In this document: in pieces, positions 11,845-36,005 of the stretch | Layout of the letters: each line of letters starts with the position of its first letter | How positions within the stretch are numbered: position 1 is the stretch's first letter | Assembly: GCA_024180945.1 (NCBI GenBank) | Contig: JAKSGN010000035.1 | Span: 1,550,001 to 1,614,000, forward strand | Direction of reading: 5' to 3' | DNA length: 64,000 nt | Source: Macrophomina tecta | Lineage: Eukaryota > Ascomycota > Dothideomycetes > Botryosphaeriales > Botryosphaeriaceae | Position numbers and translations under genes: made by a program | The notes under the pieces: generated by a model | Told to the model about the DNA's origin: nothing | Databases searched by the model: none | Seen by the model: the letters and a program-made list of their open reading frames with translations, nothing else

Positions 11845-14012
11845 ATGGCTGCACCTGAAGATTCCGATGGCATTAGCCTCGGCAGCGAAGATTCTGCGAC
11901 CAGCTCTTCGGAACACCAGAGCAGCGAGAAGGCAGAGGGCTCCACCAGCTTTCGAAACGCGTCCGAGGGCGGTGCAGGCTGCCTAGAGGGGAGCGAAAGC
12001 GTCCTCAATCATGGATACCTCACTGACAATAGGTATGTGCACAAAGATGGCCGAGAGGAGACATGGTACCAACAGAAGCACTGGACAACAATCAATCCTG
12101 GTCCGCGTGGCCCTCCCGCCGCCTTTCTTCCTGGGCCGCTCTTCGAAGACCAAGAGGATGAGGAGGACGAAGGGCCCAGCTGCGCAGAAGACCATTTTCC
12201 AGAGCCCGTTCCGGTGGTGGGAGAGGAGGCAGAGATTGCGGTGACCATGACCAAAGTCAACGATGAGGCAGAGGCCGGTGCGGGCGCGGAGTGCACTTGC
12301 GCGTCCAGCTCCCTCGCGCGCATCTACGACGATGCACCGTACTTTGATCATGAGAACGGTAAGTCTTGCGGCCCTCTCTCACCCTGTTGTGCTGACGCCG
12401 AACGCTCTGCACAGGCTGGTGGTTTGACCCGGGCGCCAACGATCCCAAGCGATCGACGTTCCTCTTCACGCCGGCCACTACCAAAGACGCAACAGACAGA
12501 CGCAAGCGCAAGCGGGAAGGTGCTGTCGACGACGCAGGCAACTCCACCGACTACAACGCCCCGCTCGCTCTCAGCTGCGAGGTCGTTGTTCCCCGCTGCG
12601 ACCTCCATTACCCCGTCACAGGCATTGTCCACGATACATCAAAGTTCATTGTGGGCTCTCGCTTCCTCAAACAGGTCATTCATACCCAGGAAATCACACC
12701 CACTGCCTTAACTGCCTCGCAAAAGATAATGTCAGAGACCTCTGTACCCCTCCGTTCCTCTTCATCAATCTCTTCGTACCACAGCAGCGTTGACAGCGAC
12801 GCCCTGGTCGAGCCTGACCCATCGCCATCTCACGCACACGCTGGACTCAGCTCTCTGCCCAGCGAACATACCGCCATTGCCGCCGGAACCAACGGCAACA
12901 GTCACGAGGGGCAGATCTTCGACAACAACCACCTCACAAGCCCCGTCGACCAAACTTCCACCGCCGCTCGCAGCTCCTCTAATAACCCCAGCGACCACGA
13001 AGAAGACGAGCACGCTGTCGAAGAGTCTGACGCCAGCAGCGCCTCTCTGCTCAGCGGCTCCAGCGACGCCAACGATTCGGACGACGGCGTCGGCCTCGCC
13101 ACCACTCACTACATCGACCAGGCACGAAAGCTTCGTCTTATCGAAGACGATCCGCGTAACCAGGGCCATAGGAAGATGAATATCCACGCCCCGCCTGCTG
13201 ACTGGACCTGCAAAACTAGTGTCGCTAAGCTCAACCGTTGGCGTAGTGGGTTCCGCGAGAGGCGGTGTGCGGCCGGCAACGAGAGCCAATCTTCACCACT
13301 CCCGAAGCGTTGGACGGCGGAGGAGCTGGAGATCCTCAAGCAAAGCCTTGTCCGGCAGCTGCTTTACCTGGGCACATTCACCCACCGCGCGCTTTTGCAG
13401 GATCTTAACGCCAAGTGGACTGATAACCATCGGTCGTACAGTGCCGTAGCAAGGACAGTCCTCCGTTACAAGCTCCTCGAACAGGCTCGGCGCATCGCGT
13501 TTGGGGACGACGGCTCCGAGGAGAGGGAGCAGGCCTATGAAGAGGCTGAGAACGGCGAGGCAGACGTGGAGGATAACAATGGCGAGGAAGAAACTGACAT
13601 CGCCGAGGCAGAGAGCGTCGAGGAGTTTGATTACTTCGTCGGCTCAGAGCAAGCGGAGGTCGACGTGTACGAGATGCTCATGCAGGAGATCAACGCCGGA
13701 CAACCCGATGCACAGGCTGAGGCGCAAGATGGCCTGGACAGGGAGATGAGCAAGGGACACGCTGTGGAGAACGAGGTAGTCTACTGCGGCCGTGAGCAGG
13801 AGGAAGACGACGAGGTGTTGTTCCAGGGTCGCAGCACCAAGAAGACGGCATTGGGCGCGGACAACGAGCACGGCACGGATTCCAACGACCTCAGCTCCTC
13901 TCCGATGATCACCAGCTGCCCTACACTTCTTCCGACTCACCCTGATCCTGACAACAAGGTGCCTACGGATGATGTGGGTGGTGTCGACCTTTCTTTCTAC
14001 CTGACCAAGTGA
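11845..14012 (+). CDS. Array gene A: DW-box protein, MNIHAPPADW type, 703 aa
   Basis: Exons 11845-12358 and 12415-14012 join in phase 1 across a 56 bp intron (GTAAGT donor, GCTGAC branch, CACAG acceptor), giving ...HENG-WWFDPG. The N-terminal 250 residues are acidic, with a VVPRCDLHYPVTGI block near 227-240 that recurs in gene B. A Ser/Asn/Asp-rich linker follows. The core runs from about 415 to 545: RKMNIHAPPADW (W435), then VAKLNRW, then RWTAEELEILK and LNAKW...HRSYSAV, spaced like the three helices of a Myb/SANT or homeodomain-like fold. The last 150 residues are very acidic and end in a plain coding tail. There is no signal peptide or membrane helix. It is the first of seven related genes in the same orientation. 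A nuclear DNA- or chromatin-binding role is inference only; the family is unnamed to me. Confidence 0.8.
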
Positions 14013-15269
14013 GGGCATGAGAGAGACATTCACGCAACATGTTGCTGGGTCACGCTCAACCAAGCACGCCCTGATGCGGCCTTCCATTTCATTAGACCAA
14101 GACAATATTGATACGCAGAGACATATGCAGGTGGGGACTGGACGGCTCAATGGTCTGTCGGTGCTGGACAGTAAGATTGGCCTGCATGATAGCTGATGGA
14201 GAGATGGGTGGAGGTTCAGCTTCGCCGCCCGTTTGATTCGTACGGTCGGCCTGCCCAGAGGTAATAGCGAGTCCATTTGATAGGGGTGCACATGGCGAAT
14301 GCCCAATAAGCTGCAAATTATCGTGCTCCTAGAGATAAAGAAGCGCTGTATTGTGACGACCTAGCCAGGTGATAATGCTATCCCTGTTTATGGGAAAGTG
14401 AATGATTCATCAGCACGTAGATGTTGTGATAGTTGAATGGCTTCCGCATCCAGGCGACACTTTCTGCTGGTTTGTGCCTGTTTTTATATCCGCCGCCAGC
14501 GCTGCAATCACACACCACCTGGCGTTGCTACGGTTTTGGCCCGAACCGGTGCGGAAACGTGCTAGGACCTTCTACCACTCCTATTAATATTGCCTGGCGG
14601 CAGTGAGTGGAGCGCGGGCGACGAGAAACCGCGCTGCCTGGACAAAAGCCGAAGTGAGCCGCTAGCAGCGAAGGCTGTGGCTGCCGGTGCCCCCACCGTG
14701 AGCGCACCTGGGTATCACCCTTACACTGGACCATTCCAAACTCGCCGGTGGTCTATGGAGCAGCGGCGGAATTTTACGTATTGGACATCTGGAGCAGCAG
14801 CTCTGTGAGCCGAGCGGCAAGCCGAGCGGTGCGACTCTTCAGCAGGCGGTGGGTCCTCCCGGCGCTCCGCAGAGTCTACCAAAGCCGTCAGGGCGAGGGC
14901 GCAGCTGCACAGCTTTGGGGCATGCTCGCTGGCACAGCTCTCCTGCACGGACCGTCGACATCGCGTCCCTCGTCTCCAGCCCACTCACTAGCACGCATAA
15001 GACTCCGACAGCTCACGGAATTTATCGTCCTCTCTTCTCTCTACCTAGCAACTCTCCCGCTCGCTCGATCGCGCACCTTTTGCATTGGCTCCTCTAGCTC
15101 TTCGCAACTTCGTGGCTCGCTCGGACCTTCCTACACGGTACAACCACCTCTCTTTCCCCTCTCTTGAACTGGGCTGACAAACCTTCTTCCGCTCACTCAG
15201 CAATCGATGTTACTTCGCACTGGCAGCCTCTATTGGGATTGTAACTTCTTGTAGTAGCGATTACTAGCC
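14013..15269. other. Intergenic between array genes A and B
   Basis: This 1.26 kb stretch holds no gene I can support. The C/T-rich stretch from about 14985 to 15260 is probably the promoter and leader of gene B. Confidence 0.4.
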
Positions 15270-16770
15270 ATGGGCTCCAACAGACATCCGACGGTCAAGG
15301 AAGGCCACTCGGCCTGCCACGAGCATGCTCATCGTATCCTCCAAACGTCTATCCCTGTTTCTCATACCACGCGCGCCGCAACTTCCCTCAGCTCGCCCCC
15401 GCTCCCTCAGAGCCAGGCCTTCATCGATACTTCGTCTGACCTGCCCGACGTCGTCGGGGCTATCGCCCGTTTCGATGAATTCCGGCACGCTTCTCCTGAG
15501 ACCGGAGCATCGTCTTCCTCTGTGCTCTCTTCAATATCTGGCGTGACGGCTGACGAGCCTATCGATGTCGATGGCTACTACTCCGCAGATCTTGATGGCT
15601 TCGAAGCTGACGATGAAGATGACACGGCTGCCCCTGATCTCCCCATTCGCAACGGCGTTGTGCGTGAGCTCCTGCCTCCTACTCGAACAATAAATCGCTG
15701 ACATGATCATTCACTTTTAGTATTGGGATGACTACCTCAACTCCGAGGCTCGCCCCATTTCTAAGCCGTGTTTGGATACTGTCGACCCTGGCGTGATCGG
15801 TATCCCCTCGAAGTGCATCTGCGGCCAGCCCTTTGGTGGTAAGCGTGTTTCGATCAGCCACGCGAAGGAGTATGAATACAAGGGCCCTAAGTTCGTCTTC
15901 GACGAGAAGAACGGTATGAAGATCTCGCATCTCACTTGCGTGGATCATGCTGACATGAGTATTACAGGCTGCTACCGCGCCCCCGAGACACCCACACTTT
16001 ACACCCCGTTCCATCACTTCAAGGTCGGCGACAAGGACATCTTCCAGCCGGTCTCCATCTCAAAGGAGGACTACCTCGCGGGAGCTCGCGGCCCGAGGCT
16101 CTCGTTGGAGCGCTCCGTCCCCATGTGTGCACACTTTCCCATTACCGGCATTGGTGCCTACAACGTTCCGTTCGTCAAGGGTCGCATCGCCCACCGTATG
16201 CCCAACTCTCAGTGCGTCGTGTCGCGCGTCCAGGAGCAGGCCCGCATGCTCTGCCTCATCGAGGACGAAGTCAGGTACGACGGTACTGCGCGTCGCCGCA
16301 TGAACATCCACGCTCCCCCAGCGGACTGGAACGACGGCGCCGCCATCTCTGCTCTCAACCGCTGGCGCGCCCAGTTTCGTCAGCGCAAGCTTCGCATCAC
16401 TTCCCGCCCGGCTCGTTACAAGTGGAGCGAAGATGCCCTCAACTATATTATTGAGCGTCTGGCCCGCGACCCGTCCGTGTACCGCGCACTACTTGCTCGT
16501 GACGTTTCACACCGCTTCGAGATTGAACGCACCGAGCATGCTGTGTCCTGTGCCATTGACCACCACAAGCTGCGCCTATCTGCTGAGGCTCTTCGTTCTC
16601 GTTGGGAAAATGAGGGCCTGCACGACAATTCCAGTGATGGAGAAGACGATCTCGATGTGGAAGACTTTGAAGACTTCGAGCTCGATGTCAAGGACGAGGA
16701 GATACTCTCCTCCGACTTCGACCGTGAGGAAGCTTTACGCAAGGTTAAGATGGAGGACTGGACTCTCTAG
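15270..16770 (+). CDS. Array gene B: DW-box protein, MNIHAPPADW type, 479 aa
   Basis: Exons are 15270-15659 and 15721-16770, phase 0, with a 61 bp intron (donor GTGCGT, branch GCTGAC, acceptor TTTTAG). The better-looking GTGAGC donor four bases on would give an immediate stop, so the earlier donor is chosen. The junction reads RNGV-YWDDY, matching HENG-WWFD at the gene A intron. Residues 162-206 hold a Cys/His cluster (C162-x-C164, H200-x2-C203-x2-H206) that may bind metal. SVPMCAHFPITGI near 262-275 matches gene A. The core follows: RRMNIHAPPADW (W333), ISALNRW, YKWSEDALNYI, then SHRF...ERTEHAV. The tail is short and acidic. Gene B is the closest relative of A in the window. Its function is unknown; nuclear binding is inferred from the helical core. 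Confidence 0.8.
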
Positions 16771-18409: not shown

Positions 18410-19964
18410 ATGGCTGGCCGCCGCAAGAAGTCCGCTAGCATCAGCGCCGCTCCGTCGTGCGACACTGACTCCGCTTTCGGTAAACACTACCCCCCAATGC
18501 CGTCTAATCCGCCGCGTCAAGTGCTAATCCACGCTGTAGCTTCTCGGAATTCTTCGAGCCTGCCAGCGATGCATATGGCTACGCGCAGCATGACCAGTGC
18601 TGCCGAGACGGGCAGCTCCTCCGCTAGATGTAAGCCAACCAGGCCCGCATAGCTTGACACGACACTGACAGCCACTAGCATCCGCTGGCACTCCAGCTCG
18701 GCCGCTCACTAGCGCTTCTCCAGATTCAGACTTCGGTGACGCTGCTGCTCAGCAGGGCGAGCCGCAGTTCAGTTGCCTGGATGCCGCCCATGCGCTGATA
18801 GCCTTGTCGCGTGGAGAGCAGGGGCAGGATCAGTCCGGTGCTGCAGCCAACACCAGCCAGCCCATCAAGCAGCAAGCCCAACCAGGTGACCCCAGTGACG
18901 AGCCTGGTGTCGACTCCAGCGTCCCTGGCCAGGGCAGTGTGCCTTCTGCTGGGGCTGCCGACCAGGCTGCCACACCCAATCTTCAGCCTCGTGCGTACAA
19001 GAAGATGACTTTTCAGCACTACGCCGCCGACTCCCTTCCACTGACGACTGCACCAGCGCGTGTCACGCCAACGTCTGGATTCGTCAACATAGGCGTTGGT
19101 AGCTCTGGACCCGCTCGTCTGGCAGACTTGGCCAGCACCCTGCCCGGCGCCCAGTCGCTCACTCTCATCACGTCACGCGCAACTGGCAGCGGACCCAAGG
19201 CCAAGTGGCAGAAGGTGGCGATCCCAATCCCGCCCGAGGTCCAAGAGTGCTACGACCAGCTGCAGATCCAGCTGCAGAACGGCACCGCGCCGCAAGTCCC
19301 TACCAACGGTGTCTTTCGCAGCACCAGCGACCCGCCGCCCATCCCCGGTAGCAAGGCGGGCTACTTCCTGCTCCAGAAGCAGCCTCACTACAAGCTCAAG
19401 GAGCCGCAGGAGTTCGTCTGCTTCTGGTACACCAGTGCCACGAGGCCGGGCATCCAGTGCCACCGCTACAAGACTGGCCGCGGCGAGGAGGTCGACTGGG
19501 ACAGCCCGAAGCAGATCAAGCTGCTGAACAGGTATGTCACACAGGAGATGCAGCGGGCCGGCTGCGCGAAGCTGCGTGACGATATGAGTAAAAGGGCTTG
19601 GATCGAGGAAGAGCAGCAGTGGATCAGGGTCCACGTCAAGGAAGTCCTGGATAGCTGGCCCGCCGATGTCGAGAAGAGCAGGAAGCAGCTTGCGGAGAAG
19701 CTGGCACTGCTGCTGAACCAGCAGTTTCAGGGAAAGAGCATGGTTGGTACCATCAGGGGCCAGAAGCAGAAGCAGGCTAGCGTTCGCCCGGAGCGGACCG
19801 CCTCGGCTCTGGAGAGCGAGTGCGAGCGTCTCCGGATCTTTAAGGAGTACGCGAGTGCGAGCGTCTCCGGATCTTTAAGGAGTACGGCGTTGGTGGGCCG
19901 AGGAGCAAGGGCGACGACCCGGGTGAAGATGACGAAGAAAATGGGCGGGTGGAAGAGGAGGTAG
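18410..19964 (+). CDS. Array gene C: DW-box protein, 481 aa, C-terminus frameshifted by a tandem duplication
   Basis: Three exons (18410-18479, 18540-18629, 18679-19964) join through two phase-1 introns of 60 and 49 bp (donors GTAAAC and GTAAGC, acceptors TGTAG and ACTAG). The start MAGRRKKSAS is basic. The first 190 residues are low-complexity (Gln, Ala, Pro, Ser). The beta-rich block (GYFLLQKQPHYKL, then FVCFWYTS) precedes EEVDWDSPKQIKLLNRY (W327). A helical region follows with QQWIRVHVKEVL, LLLNQQFQGKS and ERTASALESEC, spaced like the Myb-like region of its neighbours. A perfect 35 bp tandem duplication at 19816-19885 shifts the frame, so the present last 37 residues are basic and unlike anything in the array. 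Without the second copy the frame would run 43 codons into an acidic tail ending at TAG 20015. Function unknown. Confidence 0.78.
19816..19885. repeat. Perfect 35 bp tandem duplication inside gene C
   Basis: The 35-base unit GCGAGTGCGAG...AAGGAGTAC occurs at 19816-19850 and again at 19851-19885 with no mismatch. Because 35 is not a multiple of three, the second copy is read in a different frame (ASASVSG instead of ECERLRI). The identity of the copies points to a recent event or an assembly or cloning artefact. Confidence 0.9.
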
Positions 19965-20622
19965 GAGGGGAAGATGAACAGGCAAAAGACTCGAGAGCTG
20001 AGATGGAGTTGGAGTAGGGTGGAAAACACAGGAGCCGCGAGGAGAAGGCAGAATGGTCAGAGGAAATGGCGATTCTCGGGGAATCGTCTCGATTGCGGGA
20101 CTTTGAGAGGCGATATGACCGAGTGAGCGGTCACTCCGCGTCCACTTCTCCGACCGTTGGTGGGGGAGTGGGTGGATGGGCTTAGCGGCGGCTGAGAGCA
20201 CAAGGTATGTCGGAACACCTCTTGCTGAAGTTCCCCTCTAACGTCTCCAAGGGCAGATTTTTTTTTTTCGTCCCTCTGCCCCGGTGCAGCAGTTAGACAG
20301 CTCGTTCAGAGCGTCCGCTAAGCCCGTGGGATCATTGTGTTCCCAGACTGCCAAGTAAATGGCAGTGAAAGAATCGGTCAACACATGGTCACCACCCACT
20401 CTCCCAGGAGAGACCTAACTCACCTGGCGAGAAGCACGTGGTCTTTTCTAATGGCCCGCTGCTTCGGTTTTTCAGCCGTTTGCTACTCTCCGGCGGCGGG
20501 CCTTCGTCTCCGTCGTCGACCGTACCCGCCCGCGCCGCCGCACTCCGACGACGCACATCTCCCACGTGTGCGCCGTACATTGCACTCCACCACAGCTTCA
20601 ACCACACGCCGAGCCCCGCAAA
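19965..20622. other. Intergenic between array genes C and D
   Basis: The first 50 bases are the out-of-frame remainder of the pre-duplication reading frame of gene C (stop at 20015). An 11-base T run sits near 20258-20268. The rest should be the promoter of gene D. No other gene is visible. Confidence 0.45.
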
Positions 20623-22612
20623 ATGGCGGACTCGCCCGAGAACACGCGCGACTTCGCGCTCGAGCTGCTCAAGAGGGAGCACGGTGACAATCCCCGTAAG
20701 AACGCCCACCACTGCCCTCTCCCACCATCATCTGCCCGCCCAATCTGACGCGCGACGCTTCTCAGACCTGATGTCGTCGCTTCTCCGCCCGCCGCAGCCG
20801 CTTCAGAAGATACCGGATGGCGGCTGGGAGTCTGTGAGCACAATGCTTCACAACTACGGCCGCCAGACGGACTTCTTGAAGGCTGGCAACCCCGGCGCGC
20901 TGGCACCCGTCAACCCGCCGCCGCTCCACTCGGCGTCCAGACAGGAGTTAGAGGACGACCTCGCTGCTATGGGAATAACCACCGTGTCCGCCCGTGGCGC
21001 TAGAGCCCGTGGCCGCGCCGCCGCCGCCACCCTTCCTGAGATCGACGTCTCCACAACCGCCAGAGCGCCATCAGCATTCTCGCCGGAGCGCATCGAGCGG
21101 TCATGCAAGCAATGGTCAACGAGCGACCTCCGCGCCGCCGTAGATGCCACCATAACCCCGCCAGCAGGGGGTGAGCAAGCCAATGCCGAAAAAGCACTCG
21201 TCGACAAGCTGCTGTCCCATTACCCCACGACGTCCAGCGTCGATGCCCAGCAGACCACGAACGAGGAGGACGAGGCATTCGCCCAGCTGCTCGACGATGT
21301 GAAGACGGGTGTGGCGCGCCAGGCTGCCTGGGATGCAGAGACGTTGGCCAAAACGGCTAGGCTCGACGACGAGGGCGTGGACAACAGAACAGAAAGCGAG
21401 AAGGAGGCGACCTTGGCCGTGGAGTTCTATAAGGTCATGCAAACCAATGCCGAGGCCTTCTTCGAGCATTACCCCGCCGTCAACTCTACAAAGAGGAGGA
21501 GGAGGAGGAGGAGGAGGAGGAGGAAGAGGGCGACGAAGGCCCTTGCTGTCACAGCGGCGGAGAGCCAGAGCATTTCTGGGGAGAATAGCGCGGACGGCAC
21601 GACCATTGCCACGGCCTCACAGACGAACGCAGCCGATGAGCAGATTCTGAATGAGATCGTCAAGGAACTCTCTCAGCTCATGGGTGAAAAGCTAGCCGAA
21701 GAGTCTGCCAAAATGCCCGCCACGGGTGAAATTACCTCAGTCACTTCACCATCCACCACCATTACCCAGTCAGGACGGGACCCCGCTACTTCCGTCTCTC
21801 TCACTCCTGCCACTCCTCCAACCCACAATATGGAGGTCGCTGTCTCCACGGCGCAGCCACCCTCTCCCATCGTAGAGGACCCCCCGCTCGACGGACCCGT
21901 CGTAGACCCCACAGTGCCGTCATCGCCTGCTTTCTCGCCACGGGACGACCTCAGCAGCCTCACCTACATTCTGGGAGACTACCCGCACCCAACCACTCAC
22001 TCCGTCGAGACGCTCCTCCGTCGCAACCTGAAGGCGAACTCCACCAACACCACCACAACAACAACCACTTGGGGCTCTCTTAGCCGTACCTTATTCTTGC
22101 CAGAGCCCGTCGTCGGCGACAACAACTTCATCCTCGCGCACCCGCTGCCAATCTTCACCGTCGGCATCCCGGCCCCAGACATGCTCGTCGTCAGCTACAC
22201 CATCGATGGCAAGGAAGGCATACAACACGAATTCATCCGCTCCGGCTCCGCGCCGCTCACCGAAGTTGACTGGGATGACGAGAACCAGATCGACGAACTG
22301 AACCGCCTGATGTGCATGTGGCTGTGTGACATGGGCTGTCATCGCTCGCGTGTGACCAGCGAGAAGGCGAGGTGGTTGTGGGCAGAGCAGGTGGGTTTGG
22401 CGGCGCTGATGGGGGATGGATGGGAGGGCGAAGCGCTTTATCGCGAGTTTTGCGCGCGCTGGGCGGGGAGGGTGCTTAATGTGCAGGTCTGCCAGGGCGA
22501 GTGGCGGGATATTACGTTGCCGCTGAGGTCTGAAGAAGCGCTGGCCGAGGCTGTTGAGAGTGTGAGGAGAGGAGAAATCACTGAGTTTGGTTTCCAAGAG
22601 GTGGTGGAGTAA
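20623..22612 (+). CDS. Array gene D: DW-box protein with deca-arginine tract, 639 aa
   Basis: Exon 1 (20623-20695) and exon 2 (20766-22612) join in phase 1 over a 70 bp intron (GTAAGA donor, TCTGAC branch, TCTCAG acceptor). A longer upstream frame exists only from a GTG, so ATG 20623 (AAAATGGCG) is preferred. The N-terminal block has GNPGAL near 65 and DDLAAMGI near 88, shared with gene G. A run of ten AGG codons (21494-21523) makes R268-R277, a plausible nuclear localisation signal. A Ser/Thr/Pro linker follows. The beta-rich block (NNFILAHPLPIF, LVVSYTI) leads to TEVDWDDENQIDELNR (W527). The helical part has ARWLWAEQVG, FCARWAGRVL and LRSEEALAEAV. The spacing matches E and G closely. Function unknown; nuclear location is inferred. 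Confidence 0.8.
21494..21523 (+). repeat. (AGG)10 microsatellite coding for ten arginines
   Basis: Ten perfect AGG units lie in frame inside gene D, flanked by AAG codons. Length changes in steps of one unit would alter the Arg run without breaking the frame. Confidence 0.9.
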
Positions 22613-25600
22613 TAGAGGGGTTTGGGGTGAAAGGGGAGGGGTGAACGTAGTCAGAGGCGGGAATTGGGGCATTGGGTGTGCGTTGGATGACCGTCTCTGC
22701 ACCGGGTGAGCGGCTTCGGAGCTTGCGGGATATTCTGATGCTTTGGGAGTAGATGGTTTGCCTTGCCATCTCCTTTTTCACGGAAGATACCCTGGTTTTT
22801 CCTCTTGGTGTCTTCGCTGGCGATTGGTAGGGGGGAAAAAACTGCCCACAGAGGCAATGACGCAGGCCTAGGCACGTTCAAGAAGAATCTCTCGTGATCA
22901 GACGGGCTTTGAGAAGTAGCTAAACCTTGAATCAATCTGCGTGACTTTGGAGACTTTGTGATGCATTGTGCTGAGTTAGGATTCTACAGATGAGGCAGAG
23001 ATGCTCACGCGCTGGCGCCAGTGAGCTTAATGGAGCCGGCAGAGCACCGTCCCCAAACTCGGCGTTCACGACTGACGATGTACGGATGAGACTTGCGCAG
23101 TTGGTTCTTGAGCTCGATTGTAATGATAGTCAAACAGCACCGATCTACGGGAGAGATAACTGCGTGGGTTTTGCCAATAGCAGAAAACAGCCAGCCAGAC
23201 AGACGGACAGAATCTCGCGTCTATTTTCATTGACTGTCCATTCTCACTGCTCTTCACCCATACGTGCTAACAGTAAGGTCCGAGCGCTCGCGGAGGGCTT
23301 AGTGGCTTTCATCTCGTTGTGTTATGGTCTGATACTTTCCTAGCCAGCTGCGGCCATCTTTTGTCATGGACTGGTATATTATCTGATCACGCCAAAATGA
23401 ATCCCCAATTGGGTTCATTCCACTACTTCTTTTGCCTTCAAAGGAGGCTTGCGTTGGCGTGGCACAGTGGGTACGATCAACCCCTTTACAGTAGCTGAGG
23501 AGGGTGTTGACGGTGACAACGTATAGTACCTTTCTTTATACCCAATTGTATCCGATGATTGAGGGGCAGGAGAGAAGGTAGGGGAGAAGGGCAAGATCTT
23601 CAGCTCGAGCCCTGGGACAGACACGGGGTTTTCTTGCTGCTAGAGTTTGGGACACTTTTAGGGAGGACGGCTTCATCACGTTCCACTCATTGCTACTTTC
23701 TTTGGAGCTATGATGCTGCTCACTGCTGCTGACGTTGCTTGGAACATGTCTGAGGCTTATTTCCTGCCTTTGGTTCTTGGTTCAGTCTCTATTGATGGGT
23801 AACCGAGGGTGTTTGAAGTCGCTGCTGGACACAGGAGCGCCGCCGATGTGTAGCTGGCAGAGTTTATTTACTTGTTATAACTGAGCAATAGAATCAAGGT
23901 TACCATTAGGCAACCAGAGAAAATCGGGGGAATAGCTTGTGCCTGTGAATTATTGACTATGTCTCTGGTTTGTTCAAGTTCAAGATGACCTTGCTCAGTG
24001 CATTGTTTTCAAGACATAAAGAATGCTTGACGAGGTACTACTCACACTTTTTCGGTTTTGTTTCGGCAGTTTCCTTGGCTGAACGTTCGTAACAGAACCA
24101 TTGTTCCAGTTCAACTCCGAACGGCTGCCCGGTACTTTGGTGAAGTCTCGACTTTGGCCGCAAGTAGGTTACCGCAAAGCAAAATATTTGATTAGAGCAA
24201 TGGCATATTGCCTGCATAGAAATGATGAGCTCTGAACGCGCGCAACCATCACAAGTGGGTTGGCAGTACAGAACGTACTTCTTCAGCTTCTAGGCCTATC
24301 CTGTTCTCTAATTGGTCCGTCGAACATGTCTTTGAGCGCCCGTTCGTATGAAAACAAATTGAAGAGCTATTGACCTTTTTGCCTCACCCACTCGCGACAG
24401 CTGTTTAACTCGCAATACATCTCCGATAACATCTATCCAACGTCACCGCTACGATGATGACTATGCCCACAAGCACGCCAGTCGCCAGCCAGCTAGAAAA
24501 GGCAAAGAAATTTAGGCAGATACCGGAGAGCACTAACGATGATTGTGCGGTAGCCCCGTGTAGCCGAGGGAGGGCCACAGGAGTCTCACCCGCGATCAAG
24601 CGAAGACAGTGGTCCAGAGCATAAGAACGCAGCCCGTAGCGGAGACATTGGAGCTGCGGTAGTGGCGACGGTTTTGTCGCCCATTCCCATAGGTGGCTTC
24701 CATTCACTATCATTCAGGAGCCCACGGTGCCCCTCACGGCCGCGCTCCCACAAGCATATATATGTAATAAAGTGGCCTGCATTTTCCGGCTTGTTTTCCT
24801 ACCCGAGGGCTTGTGTGCGGAGGTTTGACGACGAGAAGTTGGACCGCAGGGGCATCGGTGGTGAAGGACGACGAGAAAATAGAATGCAAGAGCATCCGCA
24901 GGATAAGTCTGCTGGAGCATTATTGGCAGGATCGTAGCCGCACTGCTGATATTTCGGCCGTCCGGCTTTCTATAAGGAAGTCATGATGGCTCCTCCATTT
25001 TCCCACTGGGACGCATCAAATGGTACTGTGTGCAGAATTGTTGCGCGAGAACGCTTCAACACATGCAGGGACACTTTGCCAGGCCTCCTACCCGCAGCCA
25101 GCCCGCGCCTGCCGGTTTCCTTTCCAGCTACAGACAACTTGTCGACATTCCTGTGCTTGGGGAAGAAAGTGGCTGAACTCAACGCTGTTCGTCGGTAGCT
25201 GCAACGTGCTTTCTTAGTAATCTACCATGGAATAACTAGGCTAGATAGCATGACAAGAAGAAGTTTAGAAGATTATTTTCGATGCGAGTCCGGGGATTGT
25301 CGTGAAGGGGAAGACGAGCTTGCCAACACTGCCCAGCCTTAACCGGCGACAATAATTTTTACAGAGAAGTAACTTCATAAACAATTACCTTTGGGCTATT
25401 TGAACCAGAATAGTTCAATGAGTTTCGTGCAACAGTGATGTTCAATTCAGCGTCTTCAACTGTTTGACGTCGGCGTTTCTGCAAACCTGCCTTTTCCGGT
25501 TAGCTTGAGGCGTAGCTTAGACTTTATTTAGACACTGGTCGCCACGCCTACCACACAAAACTTATTTGCAACTCCATTGTTTTGGCGTCTTGATTTCTGA

Positions 25601-26009
25601 GGATTCGGTTATTAACACCATCTTCAATGTCTACTGCTACTTTTCCATCAGAAATCTGGTGGGCGGAACGCAGAAGCAATTTCTTGCTCCCCATATTAAG
25701 CTCCGAGTATCCCGCTACATGAAAGCCGGAAGGAGAACATACGACAAGCAAGATAGGTAGATTGGGAGATGCTAGCGGAAAGTTATGTGAGCTAGCAAGC
25801 GCGAACGCACAGTGAAGCAGCTTGTTCACTTCAGCCCATGTGATCATCGCGCTAACACAAAAGGAAGCTTCGTCCGGGGCCGACTTTTCGACAGTCCACT
25901 TCGCTTCCTCAGTGACATTATCAGCTAGACTTCCCCGACACCAAACCAGAGCCAGTATACTCCTATATTCTCCGCTCTCATCAAATACAACCGGCACTAC
26001 CATGTCGCG
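22613..26009. other. Intergenic, 3.4 kb, between gene D and the pseudogene
   Basis: This is the longest empty stretch in the array. Base composition is more AT-rich than the flanking genes. Frames such as 24405-24713 (minus, one hydrophobic helix) and 25548-26129 (minus, 193 codons, partly antisense to the pseudogene) lack codon bias and domains. I see no gene I can support. It could hold a more decayed array member that I cannot recognise. Confidence 0.35.
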
Positions 26010-26540
26010 CCCGTGTCTGCTTCTGCTAACCTTTCTTCTGGCATGATCATCAAAAATCATGCCACTCGTCAGGCAACTCGCGAGACCAGCAAACGCAAGC
26101 TGGACGAAATTGAAGCCTTTGGTCATCATCTACCGCAATTGAATCTAATCGGCTCCGATAACATCACCCGGGGCAGAGACGAGGTTGAGATGCGGGGTCC
26201 ACTTCACTTGTTCATCGTCGGCACCCACCAAGGTGAGCGCCTCACCCTCAGTCTCAGCTATCTCAAAGACGGTCATTGCGTGGAAAATTCGCTGCTACCG
26301 GCCTAGGGAACGTACGACGGTCGAATGGAACAGCCAGTATGCTATCAGTCTGCTAAATCAATGGAGGAACCAGTTGCTTCTTCGCAAGTGGAAATGCAGC
26401 TGTCGCCGCGACGACATGGCCCGCAGAAGCACACTGAGGTGGACAGGGAGGATTGGCGTCAGCTGCCGGAGAGGTTCACAGGAGCGACTAGAAAGGAGTT
26501 AGTCATCAAGTTCAACGAGAACTAGATGGGTCAGTCAGCC
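26010..26540 (+). pseudogene. Array pseudogene (psi): broken DW-box relative
   Basis: The array core is recognisable but split over three frames. Frame one (to the TAG at about 26304) gives EVEMRGPLHLFIVGTHQ and LTLSLSYLKDG, aligning with FELIGPRHTFVRGVDQ and LTIHYYINKPDG of gene E. A frame change is needed to read TVEWNSQYAISLLNQWRNQ, the DW box. A further change gives EVDREDWRQL and ELVIKFNEN, then TAG exactly where the intact genes have the Arg-Trp of FNERW. Codons downstream read MGQSA and stop. At least two frameshifts and one stop cannot be repaired by normal splice sites that I could find. It is oriented like its neighbours, between D and E. An ATG at 26042 or a spliced leader may have been the old start region. 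Confidence 0.6.
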
Positions 26541-27694
26541 TAGTCTATTGACAAGCAGGGCCTGAAGACGCACAATGAGCTTCGCACGAGTCGCTCTACC
26601 CAGATTCCATGGGTTACTCTGCTAGGCTCAACCCTTGGCTGGAAATGAAGCGTCAGAAGCGCGAGAAGCGCGAGAAAGCACTTCAGCTGATGACGGCAGA
26701 TGAGGAACATTCCTAGAGTAGATTAGCGGTTTCGCCAAAAGAGGAAGGTTGTGCGAAACAGGAAGAATAATTCCGACATAGATATGAACAGCGGCGAATG
26801 GTAGAATGGTAGTGGGTTCAAGCATGATCTTGTTCTCAAATGTGCCTGGATGTCAGATCACAGATTCTTCTTTCAATCCGCAAAGAAGTCGTTTCTTTTT
26901 TTCTGTTCTCTCGGACCTGGGAGGCCTAGCATGCAAAGGCGCCGAAGAATGATTGTCTTTTTCTTCATTGGCTTTGAAGTAACCTTTCGTGAGGATTTTT
27001 ACAGAGCCCGAAAGCTTAGCATCAAATGATTTATTCATTCCATTACAACGCACAAAGCTCTACTTTATTTGACAATCATCAGAACATCGAGACTGAAAGC
27101 CATGCCATAGCGGAAGACTCATTCGGAGGCAAAAGATACGGCTCCATACAGATATTCTAGCTCCGTCGAAGGGAGCGACGTGGGGCGTCGGGGCATGCCG
27201 AGTGTGAGGGAGTCTGCGCTTAAGGATGATCGTGCTTTATACAGGGCTAGACTACCTGGTAAATGCCTAACACTGGGGGAATCTATGCCGTACAGGCATC
27301 CTCAAGGCGCGCAAGTCGCTGCGACTTGGCGGGCGCGTGCGATGCCTAAATACTGATTAGCCGGCGAGATGTGAGCGCGTCGGGAAGCAGCGCGCCAAGA
27401 CAGAGCATACAGTGAATGCTATGTGGAAGCCGTGCACGGCTGCAGTCCATCACATGGAGGCTTAACACAGAGTTTTCAATCCATTCACTAATTTCATTTT
27501 TTTTTTTTTTGTTTCGCGCTCTTTCTACAGCTGCGCCTCCACCTCTCCACCTCTCCACCATAACCTTCCGCACACTTCATCGCGTCTGCCACCACCAAAC
27601 CACTTTGACGCTTTGAAATCCCAAGACGAGACTTCCTCCAGACTCGACAGATATCCCTCACAGCCCTAAGCTGCGACAGCACGCGTTCGTAGCA
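26541..27694. other. Intergenic between the pseudogene and gene E
   Basis: A phrase related to the 3' element described below (ACCTGGGAGGCCTAG) occurs near 26916-26930, about 390 bases after the pseudogene end. A 14-base T run lies at about 27497-27510, upstream of gene E. No gene is visible. Confidence 0.4.
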
Positions 27695-30376
27695 ATGCCT
27701 GTTACTCGTGCTGCCCGTCGCGGCAATCGTGCTGCGGCTGAACCCATGAACCAGGGCGTCGACAACCGTAAGTAGCTCCTTCAACAAACGAACCACCACA
27801 ACCAGCTAGTAACAGGTTTAGCCTCCGGAAAAGGCCTCGGCCCTCCTTTCGCGAGGGACAAATTGACCCGCCTCCCCCGTACGAGAAAACAATCGCTCTC
27901 CCCGTTCCAGATGCTCGTCGAACAACGGTTCCTCCGCGTCAAGGAGAATATCAAAAGCGGCGAGGACACCAAGGTAGACACTCGTGACAACCCAGTCGCG
28001 CGCAGGAACTGACTCACTTCGTTTCGTTAGATTCCGGCCCCGATCAGGACACTGGACGATGTCATGAAGGGAGGGCTGGAAAACCTCATGCGCATCCGCG
28101 CCCGTCATCCGACCATGGACCAGAACAAGTCTTTTCTTTACAAAGATTCCCTCGAGATTCGCCAGCCTGATATCACGGGTACTCGAATTTTCGTTAGCAA
28201 AGATGACCGTGGCGAGCCGCAGCTGTGCAAGCAGTTGTTCTCGATCAATCCCACTGTCCCCTTTGTCTCCGCTGCTCCTTCCACATCTGCCGTCTCTGAG
28301 ATGCATTGGGCCTTTGTGAATGGCAAGATCCAGTTCGTACGAAAGGGTGTTCAGGTATCGCGCCCGGCGGCTCCTCAAATCACCACAACTAATGCCGAGC
28401 CTCGGGCCACTAATCAGACTGCAGTCGGCGCTGGTAGACGCCGCGCTCGCAGCCTTGCGACGGAGGCAGCTACTGACATGGGAAGCACCGTCTCTGGAGC
28501 CGGCAGTCAGATGGTGCGGCCTGGGGCCCAGCAGACGGCTGCTACTGACCCTTGTAGGAAACGGTCTGTCGGCCCACTTTTGCCGGCCCAGGTCGTTGAC
28601 ACCGTCAGCACCGACACCGCTACCCTCAACTCTCCTACCATTGCAGGAAGTACTACCGGGAGCTTCGCTCACACCGCAGGCGCTGCCCAGGATGCAGTTT
28701 CCAGCGGAATCCCAGCAGATGTCGCCTCCACAGAGCAGCCACAACCTAACCAACCTCTGGCTACCCCTCTCTCCGCTGAAAATCTACATAATATCCCTCA
28801 GCGTTCGGGAATCAAGTTGAGGCTCACGGGCCTGAGAAATGGGCCACCGAAGATTCAGGTCGTTAGGGATACAGCATTTACAACTGCGGGCATCCCCCCC
28901 ACGAGCGGTAAGCGGAAGGCGGCTGATACTGATATCGCTGAAGAGAAGACGGTATCAAATGAGACTTTTGTGGGTGCCAACCAGTCTGTTGAGCCTGCTT
29001 CCAGCCAGCCGAAGCAAGTGGTCCAACACGTATCTTCTACTACGCCATCAGTCAGGAGGAACCCATCTCGCAAGGCCAAGAAGGTTCAACAGAATCTCAG
29101 CAACACTGAAAGTTCGATGACACAGCTCAGTCAGAGCACGGCTTCCCCAGGACTTGCCCCCGAGCCAGTCCCACATAATGTTAATGCCAGTCAGACGGAG
29201 CAACTGATCCACAACCCTGAAGTTCGCAAGAAGCTGGCCCGAAAAGCCAGACGCACGCATCAGCCGGCCACCAACGTCGCAGGCAGCATCAAACAATCTG
29301 ATCAAGGCTCAGGTGCCGTGCTCGACGCCACTGAGCCAGCTCTTCAGAAGAAGACTACCAGAGTGCCTCACCAGCTGGCAACTAACAGTGACGCCGAGAC
29401 ACAGCACCAGAAAGGCTCTGCCGCAATACCAGTTACGACTCAGCCAGCCTCTCAGCCGAACAGTCTCAGCAAAACGTTGAAGAAGAAGCGCAAGCTTGCC
29501 GCAGTCAAGGAGACCCAGGAGACAAACCGGCAACCAGTCAAGCGCGGCCGCACTACCGCAACTGCAGGCAATAAGAAGGCCAGCGCCGAAATGCCCGCTT
29601 TGGCCACATCCATGCTCAACGGCCGCCAGTCGTCTGCTGCTCCAGTCCAATCTCCACCCACCTCTACAACCACCACCGCCAACCCTCTGGCCAGTATCGC
29701 GCTGTCCACCGCCATCGAAAGGCCTGTCCGCGGCGAAAATGGGTTCGAACTCATCGGACCGCGCCACACGTTCGTCCGGGGCGTCGATCAGTCCGCCTTC
29801 CTCACTATCCACTACTACATCAACAAACCGGACGGCACGCGTACCCGTCACGCCTGGGAGTATCCACCCAGGAAGCATCAGACGATCGACTGGACCTGTG
29901 ACGCCACCATTGCCGCGGTATCGAAGTGGTACAACCAATACTTGGCGCGGGAGGGCTGCGACCGGCTGCGCAAGGGCACCGCTGATGCTACATACCGGGA
30001 GCCAGAGATCCAGTGGCTTCGCGACTACAACGAGGCACACAAAGACGATGACCCTCGCCCGAAGGTTGAGCAGATGCGGCAGGCGTTCAATGAGAGGTGG
30101 GTGGGCGTGGAAGTCCCGTATGTCGACAAAAGCGGACAGGAGGTGAAGACAGCGCCGCGCGAAGAGCGGACCATGGGCGGATTCAGCTCATTCGTTGGAA
30201 GGAAGAATCTTCTGCCGGATCTGAAGAAGAGGAAGAGGAAGGAGAGGGACAACGCCGACGAGGACGACGCGAAGACTAACCGCAAGAAGGCGAAGACTTC
30301 AGTGAAGGCCGGACAGGCCGGACGGATTGTGGGGAGAAAGGCGGCTGCTGGGAAGAAGAAGAAGAAGGCTGCTTGA
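27695..30376 (+). CDS. Array gene E: DW-box protein, about 858 aa
   Basis: Three exons: 27695-27767, 27816 (or 27822)-27973, 28031-30376. Intron 1 is phase 1 (GTAAGT donor; acceptors ACAG or TTTAG six bases apart, both in frame). Intron 2 is phase 0, 57 bp, with an ACTGAC branch. The start is MPVTRAARRG. A long Ser/Thr/Gln/Pro-rich middle (about 200-640) contains several Lys/Arg clusters. The beta-rich block ENGFELIGPRHTF and DQSAFLTIHYYI precedes QTIDWTCDATIAAVSKWYNQ (W about 698). The helical region has EIQWLRDYNEAH, MRQAFNERWVG and REERTMGGFSSFV. The C-terminus is strongly basic (KKRKRKERD and a final Lys run), a likely nuclear signal. The core is closest to G. Function unknown; DNA binding is inferred from the fold-like spacing and charge. 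Confidence 0.8.
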
Positions 30377-31264
30377 ACGCGGTAGGGCAAAGGTCTAGAG
30401 ATAGTAGAGTACAGATTGAGAACGGTAGAGGGGGGACATGAACCTGAAAAAAGCAGAGCGCAGATAGGACTTTGGGGGAGGCTTTCATGGGCTCTGGCGC
30501 ATGCGGCCTGGGATCTGGGAGGCCCAGTGCAATTCTCTCAAGAGCGTAGCTCGCGTTCCAGTAGTCCCTTTGCATTACAGTGGCATTCTTCTGTTTCCAG
30601 AGGCATGGCCAGACGTTCAAAAGTCTTTTTAATCGCCGGGCTTGTTTCGGAGACGCTCTTGATAGGAAGAAGAGTACATCAGATGCTAGTTAGTTACAAT
30701 ATCAATATTAAGCCATGATCATATTCTCACTCGCCATCCTAAGGCGAATGAAAGGCGCCGACATAATCCACCAGTGCATCGAGTTACAGAACGTGGCGAA
30801 ATGTATGCACAACAAGCTCCTTTCTCCAGCCCGGTGGAGCAGTCAAGCTACAATTTTGGAAAGCTCTACTTCTGTAAACCTTGTTCCAGAATATGATAAG
30901 CAGCGAGGTTCATGAACGCTTTTGTAGGGGCGGAGTCATCAGTTCTAGGTAAGCAGCGCTAGTATGTGCCAAGTGCCGTCATCTGTACAGGATCTGGAAG
31001 TGAATGCATTTGCGGAGGAATATAATCAATCACTAACGCCGGGTGCAGTATTCTGGGTCTGTGAGCCACGTCACGAGCTCGCCGGCGTTCTACTGTTGTT
31101 GTTATTTTTTCGCTCCTCGCCCTTCTCCTGATTCCTGCACGCATTTCGGCACAACGCGAAATACAACACACCCGACACGTCCATTACCAACCTTTTGAAC
31201 TTGAATTTCGGTACTCGACATTAGCTTCTTCCATTTTATTCCGTCCTCATTGCAGAAGGTACAC
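30377..31264. other. Intergenic between array genes E and F
   Basis: The stretch holds the 3' element at 30510-30526 and, toward 31264, the presumed promoter of gene F. I see no gene. Confidence 0.4.
30510..30526 (+). repeat. 17-base 3' element downstream of gene E
   Basis: GGGATCTGGGAGGCCCA lies 134 bases after the stop of gene E. The same 17 bases recur after gene F (33552-33568), with a close variant at 33649. The part TGGG-AGG-CCCA can fold into a short hairpin. Confidence 0.7.
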
Positions 31265-33349
31265 ATGTCGGCCCCACGCCGGCACCGCCAGCAAAACACC
31301 TCCCCTGACGAGGATGAGACGCAGGTAGGCGCTCGAAAACAACAAACGATGGCATTAACCAATTTCTCATGCGTGCCATAGACACCCGCCATGTCCTGGC
31401 CTCGCAGCATTTCCTCAGCACAGCCTACATCACGCGCCCTTGTGCTCGACGACGGGTTTCTTCTCACTGGCACAGCAACCCGCCCGCAGTCTGCCCCATC
31501 AGATGGTACACGTCTTCGAGGCCGCTCCCCTTTCCCATTCGGCCGGCATAGCAGCTTCGGCCCTAACCAGGACTTCGACTCCCTGCTCAAAGACATTTAC
31601 AGCGACGGTCCGGACCACGCTGGGGAAGCCGCCCCTGAGCAGCCTATTCTTAGCAACGGCGTGACTGGCGCTGCCGCTCAACCTCCTCAGTCGGCACCTG
31701 CCCGCGATGTCGTCAACCACCACGGTGTAGTTACTCCGGCCGAGCTCTCCGGACTAAGCTTCTCCGAGATCCAGCATTATGTGTACCGAGCGCGCCAGCC
31801 ACAAAGGGACTACCTGGGCCAACAGCTTGGCGTCGAGCATGCTCCGGGTCTAGCCAGGCTCACTGACCTTGATCGTTCTGCATTCAGCCGGACTGACCAC
31901 TTTGCGTACCAGCCACATCCCCCAGCTGCTCGGATGACGACGACGACGAAGAAGAAGAAGAAGAGGCAGACAAAGAAAAGGGCCAAACCGCAGAGTGTCC
32001 AGTCGCTAATTGCTGAACGGGCTGCCGCCAATCCTTCTCCTGCTCCTGGCCAGGCGAGCACCAACACCGGTCTGCCCGCCGGGAACAACAGCGTATCAGC
32101 AGCACTGACAATTGCTGAGTCTGCTAATGGAGCCCTGGGCAGCGGTGAGCAAGATCCTCCTAGTTCTGCTGCTGGCACTGATTCTGCTCAGGTGCCTGCC
32201 TCTTCCGGTTCGCTGACGTTCAGCCATCGCCGGATGGACAACGGCCACATCATGGCCACATTTGCTGGCCCGCAGCTCTTCAAGTTTACCGCCCCGCAGA
32301 ATTCCGTCTCCACCGACGCTGGCAGCATAGTCGCAACCGGCAGCCGCAAACGAAGTGCTTCCTCCATGGCCCTTCCGCGGCAGGGCGCCGCCAGCAGTAC
32401 CGGAGCTGCCCGTCCGACGAAGACCCCCCGGAGACACCAGGGAATGCAGCGACCTGCCCGCAACATGAACAGGGACAATCAGTCCCAGAGTGCTTCCGTT
32501 GGCCTCCCCGCAAACCTTCCATCCGCCGGTGCCAACAACAGCGCGGGCATGTGGCAGAGGCAGGCTAGCGCCCTGCCCGCCCAAGCCCTCCAAGTTACCA
32601 GGCGCAGCCGTCTTTTCGACCTGCTGAGTGCAGGGCTCGAGGAGGAGGACGAGCCTGGCAGCATCGTCCCAGACTCTGCTCGTCGAGGCGCGCGCCGGCG
32701 TCCGCGCGCTCGGCCTCTCCCGCCGCTCGACCCTCTATCGGACACGCCCCATGCCGCTCTGCAGACTGAAGATGCTACTGCTCCCGCTCAAGCTATCGCC
32801 GCGCACCCCCGTCCCATGCTGCCCGCTGCTCCCCTCCTACAGAGCGCCCTCGCGCCTCTCACCAGGCCCACCCCGTCCGTCCCCACCACCACCACAACCA
32901 CGGCGCCCCGCTTCCGCCGCGCCGCCCGCAAGAGCAGAGAGGAGCCACCCTATGAGGCCGTCGAAAACACTTTCCTGCGCTCCCTCAACGAGCGCTGCGT
33001 CGGCCTGGCGCCGCGCGACCTCCCCACCGACAAGTCGCTCGTCGAGGAGTTCAACAACCGCTTCGCGGGGACACAGCTAACGGTGCAGGACGAACACGGC
33101 GGGCATCGCTTGACGGAGCCGCGGCCGACGCGCACGAAGGCGGCCATCACGTCGCATGTGCGTCGCGAGGGGTTCTGGGCCGATATCAAGCGCGTGAGGG
33201 CAGAAGGGAGGGGCTGGAAGCCTGGACCGAAGCTGGGATCGAAGAAGAGGAGCAAGGCGGAAATGGACGGGGAGGAGGAGAAGAAGAAGGAAAAGAAGAA
33301 GGGGGAGGAGGAGGGGGAGGGGGAGGAGGATGAGGGTGAGGAGGAGTGA
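31265..33349 (+). CDS. Array gene F: member lacking the DW box, 675 aa
   Basis: Exon 1 (31265-31324, 20 codons, MSAPRRHRQQ) and exon 2 (31382-33349) join in phase 0 over a 57 bp intron (GTAGGC donor, ATTAACC branch, CATAG acceptor). The body is Ala/Ser/Pro-rich and disordered, with a Lys cluster near 200 (TKKKKKRQTKKRAK). Only the second half of the array core is present, near 535-620: ENTFLRSLNERC, LVEEFNNRFAGTQL and RTKAAITSHVRR, aligning with WLREVGARM, YNKRWAGTVI and RSRDALQSEIYR of gene G. The beta block and the DW box are missing, and Trp is replaced by Phe in two helix positions. The C-terminus is a mixed Glu/Lys tract coded by GA-rich simple sequence. Membership in the array rests on the helical half, intron layout and the shared 3' element. 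Confidence 0.75.
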
Positions 33350-33551
33350 GAGGCGAGGGATGAAGGGGAAACTGGACGAAGCGATATATGGAGCCAAAAC
33401 CGGTGGCGTGATACGTGGCTTACAGGATAGTCTTGTGAGGAGAGGACGGCTCGGGGTTCTCTCCTCGCATCTATTCTCCTACTTTTTTTTTTTTTTTCCA
33501 CGACAGGCGCTCACATAGGCTGGGCATCGCAACCAAGCTTATTTGATGACT

Positions 33552-33568
33552 GGGATCTGGGAGGCCCA
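33552..33568 (+). repeat. 17-base 3' element downstream of gene F
   Basis: GGGATCTGGGAGGCCCA is identical to the copy after gene E and lies 203 bases after the stop of gene F. Confidence 0.7.
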
Positions 33569-33648
33569 ATACGGTTTGGTTGTGATGGAGACCTAGCTTC
33601 TGTCGGCCGGACATCATTCAAAAGGAGCAGAGAAGACATCACAGCGTC

Positions 33649-33682
33649 GGGATCTGGGAGCCCCACATGGGGCTTCCTGTTT
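33649..33682 (+). repeat. Variant 3' element with an inverted repeat
   Basis: GGGATCTGGGAGCCCC matches the element with one base dropped. It runs into the inverted repeat GGAGCCCC-ACAT-GGGGCTTCC, which could form a hairpin in a transcript. Confidence 0.6.
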
Positions 33683-34590
33683 TGATGGTATTATGGTTCA
33701 TAATGCGTAAAGTAGTAAAGTCATAGCCTTCGGCAACATAAAAAACCTAAATTGAGTTATGAGTTCGATGAGAAAGTTATGCAATCACGGTGATATTGGC
33801 ACTTCTTCTGCTCAGTAACTCAAGCAAGGTTGAGCTTACCAACTCCTAGCTTGAGTTGACCAAGCCAGCTAACCCTCAGGCTTTACAGTCAGTCATATCA
33901 ATGGAACGCAATTTGGCAGCTTCCATGTTGGCTTAATTCCCGTGCAATGTCTACGAGTACCACATCTGCTTTCGCTCCTTTCCTAGCAGCAGAGTAATAG
34001 GCTCCATGTGCGAATACAAAGTCAGTATCTTACAAGACTCCATATCAGCTATGTGCTGCTAAGTCACGGTGTGAATCCGCCAACACGCTGCTGGAGCGGA
34101 CTTGACATGCAAAATGATTCATTTTGTTGTTTGGGCTCGCGAGATCGAAGACTCGAAGCCATGGCTGTGACTGGGCGGATGGTGCACGACATAGCGATTG
34201 CAGGCTTACACAGTGCCGCTGGCATTTTGTGACAGTCACATTTTCTTGAAACCTCTCATACGTCAGCACCGCATCGATGGCCCTGGCCAAGCGGTGAAAG
34301 GCTCTCTGAGTCGCAGTTCAGCTCAAGACTACCACGCGATAGTGTCCTTAGCTTGCACATAAACGGCGAGGGATGCAGTTGTAAACGCAGCAAACGCCTC
34401 AGCTCACTTGCGCGCGCTAAGGCCGCAACGGTGAAAGGTGGTTCAGTGTTGAACTATTTTTTTCATTCACTGGCGGCGCGTGGGGTGCTCTTTGGTTCTG
34501 TTTTCTTCCACACCGCGCCTGCGCCGCGTCCATATCTGCACACAACAAACATCAACCGGCCCTGCGCGTGAGACTTCAGCATCACCCACA

Positions 34591-36005
34591 ATGTTGGAAG
34601 CAACAAAGACTTCGCGCAGCGCTCGTCGTGTGTCATCCTCTCTTACAGCTTCCGATCCTGCCATGGTCTCGTCCACAAGCCCAGCCAGGTCTTTCCAGGC
34701 TGACCTCACCCGCGAGCTTACTGGTGAGTCCGACACAACGCGTCTCAAGATATCTTCAAGCTGACAAGACTCATTGTAGCTGTTGAGTCCGAGGAATGGG
34801 AGCGTGAGCAAAGGATCGAGGAGTCCGTCCAGACGCTCCTTGCCAATGCCACCAGCCGCAAAAGCTACAAGCATAGAGGAAACCCAGGTGTCTTTGATGC
34901 CCTCGAGCCCATCTCAGCGGACGAGTTCCTCGATGATTTGGCTGCCATGGGCGTGCTTCTGCCTGGCTCAGCTCAAGAGCCTGGTGAAGAAGAAACTGCA
35001 AAGGAGAACGCCGGCAAAAAGGCTGAACGTAGGGCGACCGAATGCACTGCAGATGGCGCCCCAAAGGTCGCTACTAGAGCCAGCAGTCGCATTGCCGCCA
35101 TCGCCGCCGCTGCTACAGTCACGGCTACTTCCCCTGTCCTGCCTAGCTCGCTGCCACCCGGCCCCGACACGGATGAGCAAGGCAATGGAAACGATGAGGT
35201 TAGAGGCGAAAATGCCTCTGCAACCAATCCAGAGATCGCCGACCCCATTTCAGAAGACGGCCCCCTGCCCAATGATGCCGTCTCACTCTCGCCCTCAGAC
35301 GAGGATGAAGACAACGACGCCGCCTCTATGATCGGTATGCCCTCTCACTCACCCTCGGATGGCGATGAAGACGACTACGACTACGACTACGACGACGACG
35401 ACGACGACGCCGCTGCCGCCCCTAGCCCCGCCTTGGCCCGCCATCTGCGCTCCCGCGTCGACGCCGTGGTCACCGGCAAGAACGGCTTCCGCCTGCTGCA
35501 CCCCCAGCACTTCTTCACCCCCGGCCCGGACCAGTCCGCTCACCTCACGATCCACTATACCGACGATGATACCCTCCCGGGCGCCACCAAGACCCACACG
35601 TACGGCGCGCGCGGCACCTTCAAAGATATCGCCCCCGACTGGAGCAACGCCGACTACATCACGCGGCTGAACAAGTGGTACAACCAGTTCCTGCTGCGGC
35701 ACGGGGTGGCGGGCCTGCGGCCGGGCGTGATGCCGTTCTCGGCGGCGGAGCGCGCGTGGCTGCGAGAGGTGGGTGCGCGGATGGAGCGCGGGGAGATGCG
35801 CTGGGGCAAGAACAGGCTGGCGGTCGAGTACAACAAGCGTTGGGCGGGCACGGTGATTGAGGGCGAGGACAAGGGGAAGGGGCTGAATGGGAAGACACGC
35901 CCGGCGAGGAGTAGGGATGCGCTGCAGTCGGAGATCTATCGCTCCGAGCTGTTTCCAGAGAGCGTTAAGGGCCACAAGACGAAGAAGGTGGAGAGCATGG
36001 GCTGA
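34591..36005 (+). CDS. Array gene G: DW-box protein, 452 aa
   Basis: Exon 1 (34591-34723, 44 codons) and exon 2 (34780-36005) join in phase 1 over a 56 bp intron (GTGAGT donor, GCTGAC branch, TGTAG acceptor). GNPGVF near 78 and DDLAAMGV near 96 match gene D. A (GAC/TAC)n tract at about 35372-35408 codes for an Asp/Tyr run ahead of the core. The core is the cleanest of the set: KNGFRLLHPQHFF, DQSAHLTIHY, APDWSNADYITRLNKWYNQ (W332), ERAWLREVGARM, YNKRWAGTV and RSRDALQSEI, ending about 25 residues before the stop. The short basic tail suits a nuclear protein. It is the last array member; the next 2.7 kb is empty. Function unknown; the three-helix, Trp-containing layout suggests a Myb/SANT-like DNA-binding unit. 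Confidence 0.8.

Follow-up and report, generated by a model that had tools for sequence, protein, structure and literature searches.

Do seven diverged genes lying in a row in the genome of the fungus Macrophomina tecta form one family, and what kind of proteins do they encode? The genes (g1 to g7, all on the plus strand) stand in a row with one broken copy at positions 11,845 to 36,005 of a stretch of 64,000 nucleotides, hereafter the window (contig JAKSGN010000035.1, positions 1,550,001 to 1,614,000). A reading made from the letters alone (the sequence-only reading) had proposed a tandem array of an undescribed family of nuclear, DNA- or chromatin-binding proteins. We consider, with a probability of about 0.6, that the array is a tandem family at one locus, whose products carry a Myb-like three-helix module and are likely nuclear DNA- or chromatin-binding regulators.

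One tandem family at a single locus

Single proteins were used as queries against the fungus's own whole genome (54.1 Mb, 37 contigs). From g7, the genes g5, g4 and g3 were detected with E-values of 1.7e-19, 5.7e-6 and 1.9e-4, respectively; g6 is linked to g5 (1.5e-4) and g1 to g2 (3.7e-12). In these searches g1 recovers only g2, g6 only g5 and the piece of the broken copy only itself. A profile built from g3, g4, g5 and g7 and run against the 1597 six-frame open reading frames (ORFs) of the window recovers g6 (E 5.6e-10), the broken copy (2.8e-6), g2 (4.6e-4) and g1 (1.0e-3), the best unrelated ORF being found at E 1.8. When each of the seven genes is left out in turn, it is detected by the remaining six with E-values of 2.1e-7 to 5.9e-26, where the recovery of g1 and of g2 depends on each being the other's nearest copy. 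The alignment of the g2 group with the g7 group by hhalign (P 5.4e-5, probability 67%) spans the strand pair, the Asp-Trp and the long helix described below. In the shuffle control, the real score is unmatched by any scored shuffle (137 of 300 scored for g1, 137 of 300 for g2 and 115 of 300 for g6). The reverse direction is weaker: the g2 profile gives 10.8 to 14.2 bits to g3, g4, g5 and g7 and -0.5 bits to g6, and 2 of 172 scored shuffles of a transposase reach 12.9 to 13.1 bits with it.

Independent marks of common descent are found in the gene structures and downstream of the genes. In g3, g4, g5 and g7 alike, the first intron is in phase 1 and close to the N-terminus, and the first exon is exactly 73 bases long in both g4 and g5. 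The intron of g1 and the second intron of g2 occupy the same ENG/KNG site, in phase 1; the first introns of g6 and g2 are in phase 0. A 19-base element recurs in the array (Table 1), and a 17-base part of it, with at most one mismatch, occurs at four places genome-wide, three of them in the array. As judged by these comparisons, the relatedness of the seven genes is beyond chance, and together with the broken copy they make up a single tandem family; only profiles link g1, g2 and the broken copy to the others.

The box of Asp-Trp and LNRWR-type residues, reported by the sequence-only reading in six intact genes and the broken copy, is indeed found in the broken copy and in g1, g2, g3, g4, g5 and g7; in g6 it is missing, and only the three-helix half of the core is retained. 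The broken copy is genuine, its family similarity being interrupted by stops. Weak family pieces are present in other frames at about 25929-26303 and 26544-26645 (E 3 to 4), the former scoring E 0.059 with one profile. Repeat-induced point mutation (RIP) was considered as a source of the divergence and rejected, as the RIP thresholds are not reached in any 500-base stretch of the window (taken at steps of 250); in RIP measures, the broken copy resembles its surroundings.

The eight queries (g1 to g7 and the broken copy) gave 24 matches in the whole genome to E 10, including the eight queries themselves. All are located within the array except one (E 5.9); confinement to the array is strong and not absolute, the search scoring the best candidates only. 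The same tool with the Myb family PF00249 finds 27 ordinary Myb matches across the genome at E 0.001, none of them in the array.

Relatives in other fungi and the age of the copies

A protein database outside this genome was searched with g2, g5 and g7, by a method that needs common exact words and limits candidate length. In the charcoal-rot fungus Macrophomina phaseolina, strain MS6, the counterpart of g7 is 100% identical in the core and 95.6% in the N-terminus, that of g5 is 96.9% identical in the core and 95.4% in the arm, and that of g2 is 98% identical over 75% of the query. Their locus tags (MPH_05985 for g2, MPH_05988 for g5 and MPH_05991 for g7) follow the order of the array. The MS6 record of the g2 counterpart (284 residues) starts inside intron 2 of g2 (15914-15967), without the first exons, and this public gene model looks truncated by comparison with ours.

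Other relatives of g2 come from Diplodia corticola (66%) and D. seriata (64%), with three further proteins; a relative at 60% is a record labelled Neofusicoccum parvum and carries a Botryosphaeria-type locus tag. Besides MS6, g7 matches two more distant proteins at 57%, in which the core is kept at 57-60%, and g5 matches MS6 only. With this search method, the lack of Diplodia matches for g5 and g7 is no more than suggestive. In the searches made, the named relatives are confined to the Botryosphaeriaceae; with the g2 alignment only, bacteria, archaea and viral contigs yielded 46 and 18 peptide-pattern stretches, none of which was confirmed by tblastn.

Whatever their genus, the relatives of g2 cluster together in the phylogenetic tree and g1 lies outside. 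The tree stars the clade of g1 and g2 (98/98) and leaves open the fork of g2 (93/88); a long-branch flag is carried by g1, g3, g4 and g6, whose placement is unsure. From this topology, the g1/g2 duplication is likely older than those genera. Local duplication and strong divergence, both invoked by the sequence-only reading, are supported, but the g1/g2 duplication seems old, not recent.

It might be argued that g2 alone matters and that the remaining copies are relics, drifting and functionless. One copy is broken, g6 has no box, and no named relative outside Macrophomina was obtained for g5 and g7, all of which would fit such a decay. We hold it to be improbable, because frames and splice sites are intact in all seven genes, the core of g7 is better preserved in MS6 than its N-terminus, and this core is still kept in the two more distant proteins.

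Predicted core and possible function

Structure models were obtained for g2 and g7, and the structure of the other members is carried over by alignment. The full core is predicted to consist of a strand pair, the Asp-Trp, a long helix of the LNRWR type and a three-helix bundle. The proposal of a three-helix region following the box is supported by both models, which display the same order of elements and not unrelated folds. In the g2 model, the strands and the long helix are of low confidence, and the predicted arrangement of the helices is like that of a Myb repeat. Foldseek returned no usable match, and the absence of Myb chains from the g7 list excludes nothing. Searches of solved structures by sequence gave nothing credible, either with the g7 group (nine chains at E 0.098-0.94, eight antibodies and 2f86_B) or with the g2 group (one chain, E 0.58).

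In g2 and g7, the core is more conserved than the remaining chain, and across the family the arms are long and little conserved. Upstream of the core, g2 contains the residues C147, C162, C164, H177, C248, H250 and C277, invariant in four full-length relatives, as is C290 at the core's edge. This set (residues 147-290) may hold a metal; the stretch has no Pfam match.

That the proteins are nuclear and bind DNA or chromatin, as proposed by the sequence-only reading, is suggested by the predicted fold, by the basic clusters present in five of the seven genes and by the absence of a hydrophobic N-terminus in all seven (best 11-residue mean hydropathy of -0.07 to 0.52 in the first 40 residues). 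The same features bear on another idea, that the proteins are plant-directed effectors of a fast-evolving cluster. Effector genes also show a tandem, lineage-restricted and diverged layout, which is what the array displays in a plant pathogen. Proteins of this length, with basic clusters and without any hydrophobic N-terminus, make it very hard to credit.

Two points call for care here. In Myb proteins, a basic recognition helix contacts DNA, and such a helix is not found in the predicted third helices of g2 and g7, whose net charges are -2 and 0, respectively; this is the main reason for caution on DNA binding. Furthermore, the core of g4 has a net charge of -14 (the other six range from +4 to +10), so that one DNA-binding function common to all seven is unlikely. 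The bundle could instead dock on histones or other nuclear proteins, as SANT-type binders of proteins or histone tails do, and not on DNA. This alternative deserves attention although we find it doubtful, since the long helix is basic (+4 in g2, +2 in g7) and six of the seven cores are net positive.

If the products are DNA- or chromatin-binding regulators, the bundle would dock onto DNA or the nucleosome, the long basic helix would brace the bundle or pair two molecules, and the long charged arms would recruit partners. The gene g2 would keep the founding role, conserved across genera, and the other copies would have arisen by local duplication, followed by drift of their targets. Their fates would have differed: g6 may have lost half of the module, g4 may have become acidic and the broken copy may have died. 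More speculatively, the array is possibly driven by conflict. The locus would then be a single-site factory of genes for DNA-binding proteins, in which the old founder g2 yields copies whose cores are turned towards targets that keep changing (for instance mobile DNA or the chromatin of another individual). The genetic conflict behind it would be restricted to a single fungal family; we would put the odds of this scenario low.

Should DNA or chromatin binding be correct, the array would represent a lineage-restricted regulator family that adds its own N-terminal extension to a homeodomain-like fold. It would also offer one compact locus in which to trace, across related fungi, how regulator genes arise, are redirected, become truncated and die.

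Layout of the array and comparison with known families

From the starts proposed by the sequence-only reading, all seven genes could be modelled; their introns (48-70 bases) are of the GT-AG type and their frames are unbroken. The end of the array agrees as well. The products have 452-858 residues.

Table 1. Positions in the window of the genes, predicted structural elements and 19-base elements
Feature	Position	Strand	Description
g1	11845..14012	+	2 exons, 703 residues; box and three-helix region at about 13122-13484
g2	15270..16770	+	3 exons, 461 residues
g2, long helix of the D-W/LNRWR box	16336..16386	+	model residues 123-139; low confidence, block means of the predicted local distance difference test (pLDDT) 52-55
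g2, three-helix bundle	16414..16581	+	model residues 149-204; overlays c-Myb repeats
g3	18410..19964	+	3 exons, 481 residues; core 19350-19853
g4	20623..22612	+	2 exons, 639 residues; core 22112-22594
Broken copy	26149..26499	+	stretch clearly similar to the family; covers the box and the beginning of the three-helix part
19-base element	26910..26928	+	follows the broken copy; matches the element after g5 at 84%
g5	27695..30376	+	3 exons, 858 residues; core 29735-30217; several basic clusters
19-base element CTGGGATCTGGGAGGCCCA	30508..30526	+	downstream of g5
g6	31265..33349	+	2 exons, 675 residues; three-helix half within 32891-33259
19-base element	33550..33568	+	downstream of g6; exact copy of the one after g5
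19-base element	33647-33665		second copy after g6; 84%
g7	34591..36005	+	2 exons, 452 residues; core 35469-35972
g7, long helix of the box	35649..35699	+	model residues 61-77
g7, three helices	35730..35948	+	model residues 88-160; loop insertion before the third helix

The last exon of g3 includes a perfect 35-base tandem duplication (19816-19885). As 35 is not a multiple of three, the C-terminus of g3 beyond the duplication is read in a shifted frame with respect to a single copy. Among the intergenic ORFs, the one scanned lies on the minus strand at 25548-26129, where it overlaps the broken copy; it has no Pfam match at E 0.01. The array region is flanked by a DEAD-box RNA helicase of the SPB4 type (43884-46037, minus strand); a frame with a cAMP-receptor-like match (38697-40142, minus strand) and a DUF6640 protein (48912-49610, plus strand, E 4.3e-29) are also present in the window.

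No published mention of these proteins was found, judging by titles and abstract openings, and neither the three MS6 locus tags nor those of three relatives gave literature matches. In the main text of PMC13403568 and PMC8905617, two sources on Botryosphaeriaceae genomes, the words Myb, DNA-binding and tandem are absent from the parts available. The Pfam scan (E up to 1) covered pieces from the last exon of each of the seven genes (exons 2 and 3 in the case of g2). In these pieces no Pfam family reaches its cut-off, in agreement with the view that the family is unnamed; the best E is 0.012 in the g2 group and 0.051 in the g7 group.

One weak likeness concerns HTH_32 (PF13565): six of the nine members of the g2 alignment match it, the best with E 0.012, and in g2 the match spans the long helix and the bundle. 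The bundle could derive from the DNA-binding region of a Tc1/mariner-type transposase that was domesticated before being duplicated. We judge this origin unlikely: g2 scores 10.1 bits with HTH_32 for a cut-off of 33.7, the HTH_32 matches of the genome include no array gene, and no Pfam transposase domain appears at E 1 in the pieces scanned, whereas two transposases of the genome show DDE_3. The array-family profiles give these two only -1.8 to 0.7 bits, under the best shuffles. Across the genome, HTH_32 has 82 matches to E 10; both places that were read encode Tc-type transposases with DDE_3. Thirty-nine of the 82 have an identical score of 30.7 bits and are free of internal stops, a pattern suggestive of a recent burst.

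With Myb/SANT proteins (PF00249; c-Myb structures 1h88 and 1mbg), the g2 model shares the arrangement of the predicted bundle; the array has no Pfam Myb match in the pieces scanned, and the members of the g2- and g7-group alignments find no Myb family at E up to 10. The array cores differ from Myb/SANT by the predicted strand pair, Asp-Trp and long helix before the bundle, by the loop insertion in g7 and by the non-basic predicted third helix. In layout only, the array recalls the KRAB zinc-finger clusters of vertebrates, with tandem copies, divergence and dead copies; the fold of the KRAB zinc-finger proteins is unrelated, and the array is one locus. We class the array as a lineage-restricted family that belongs to a known fold class and has its own extension.
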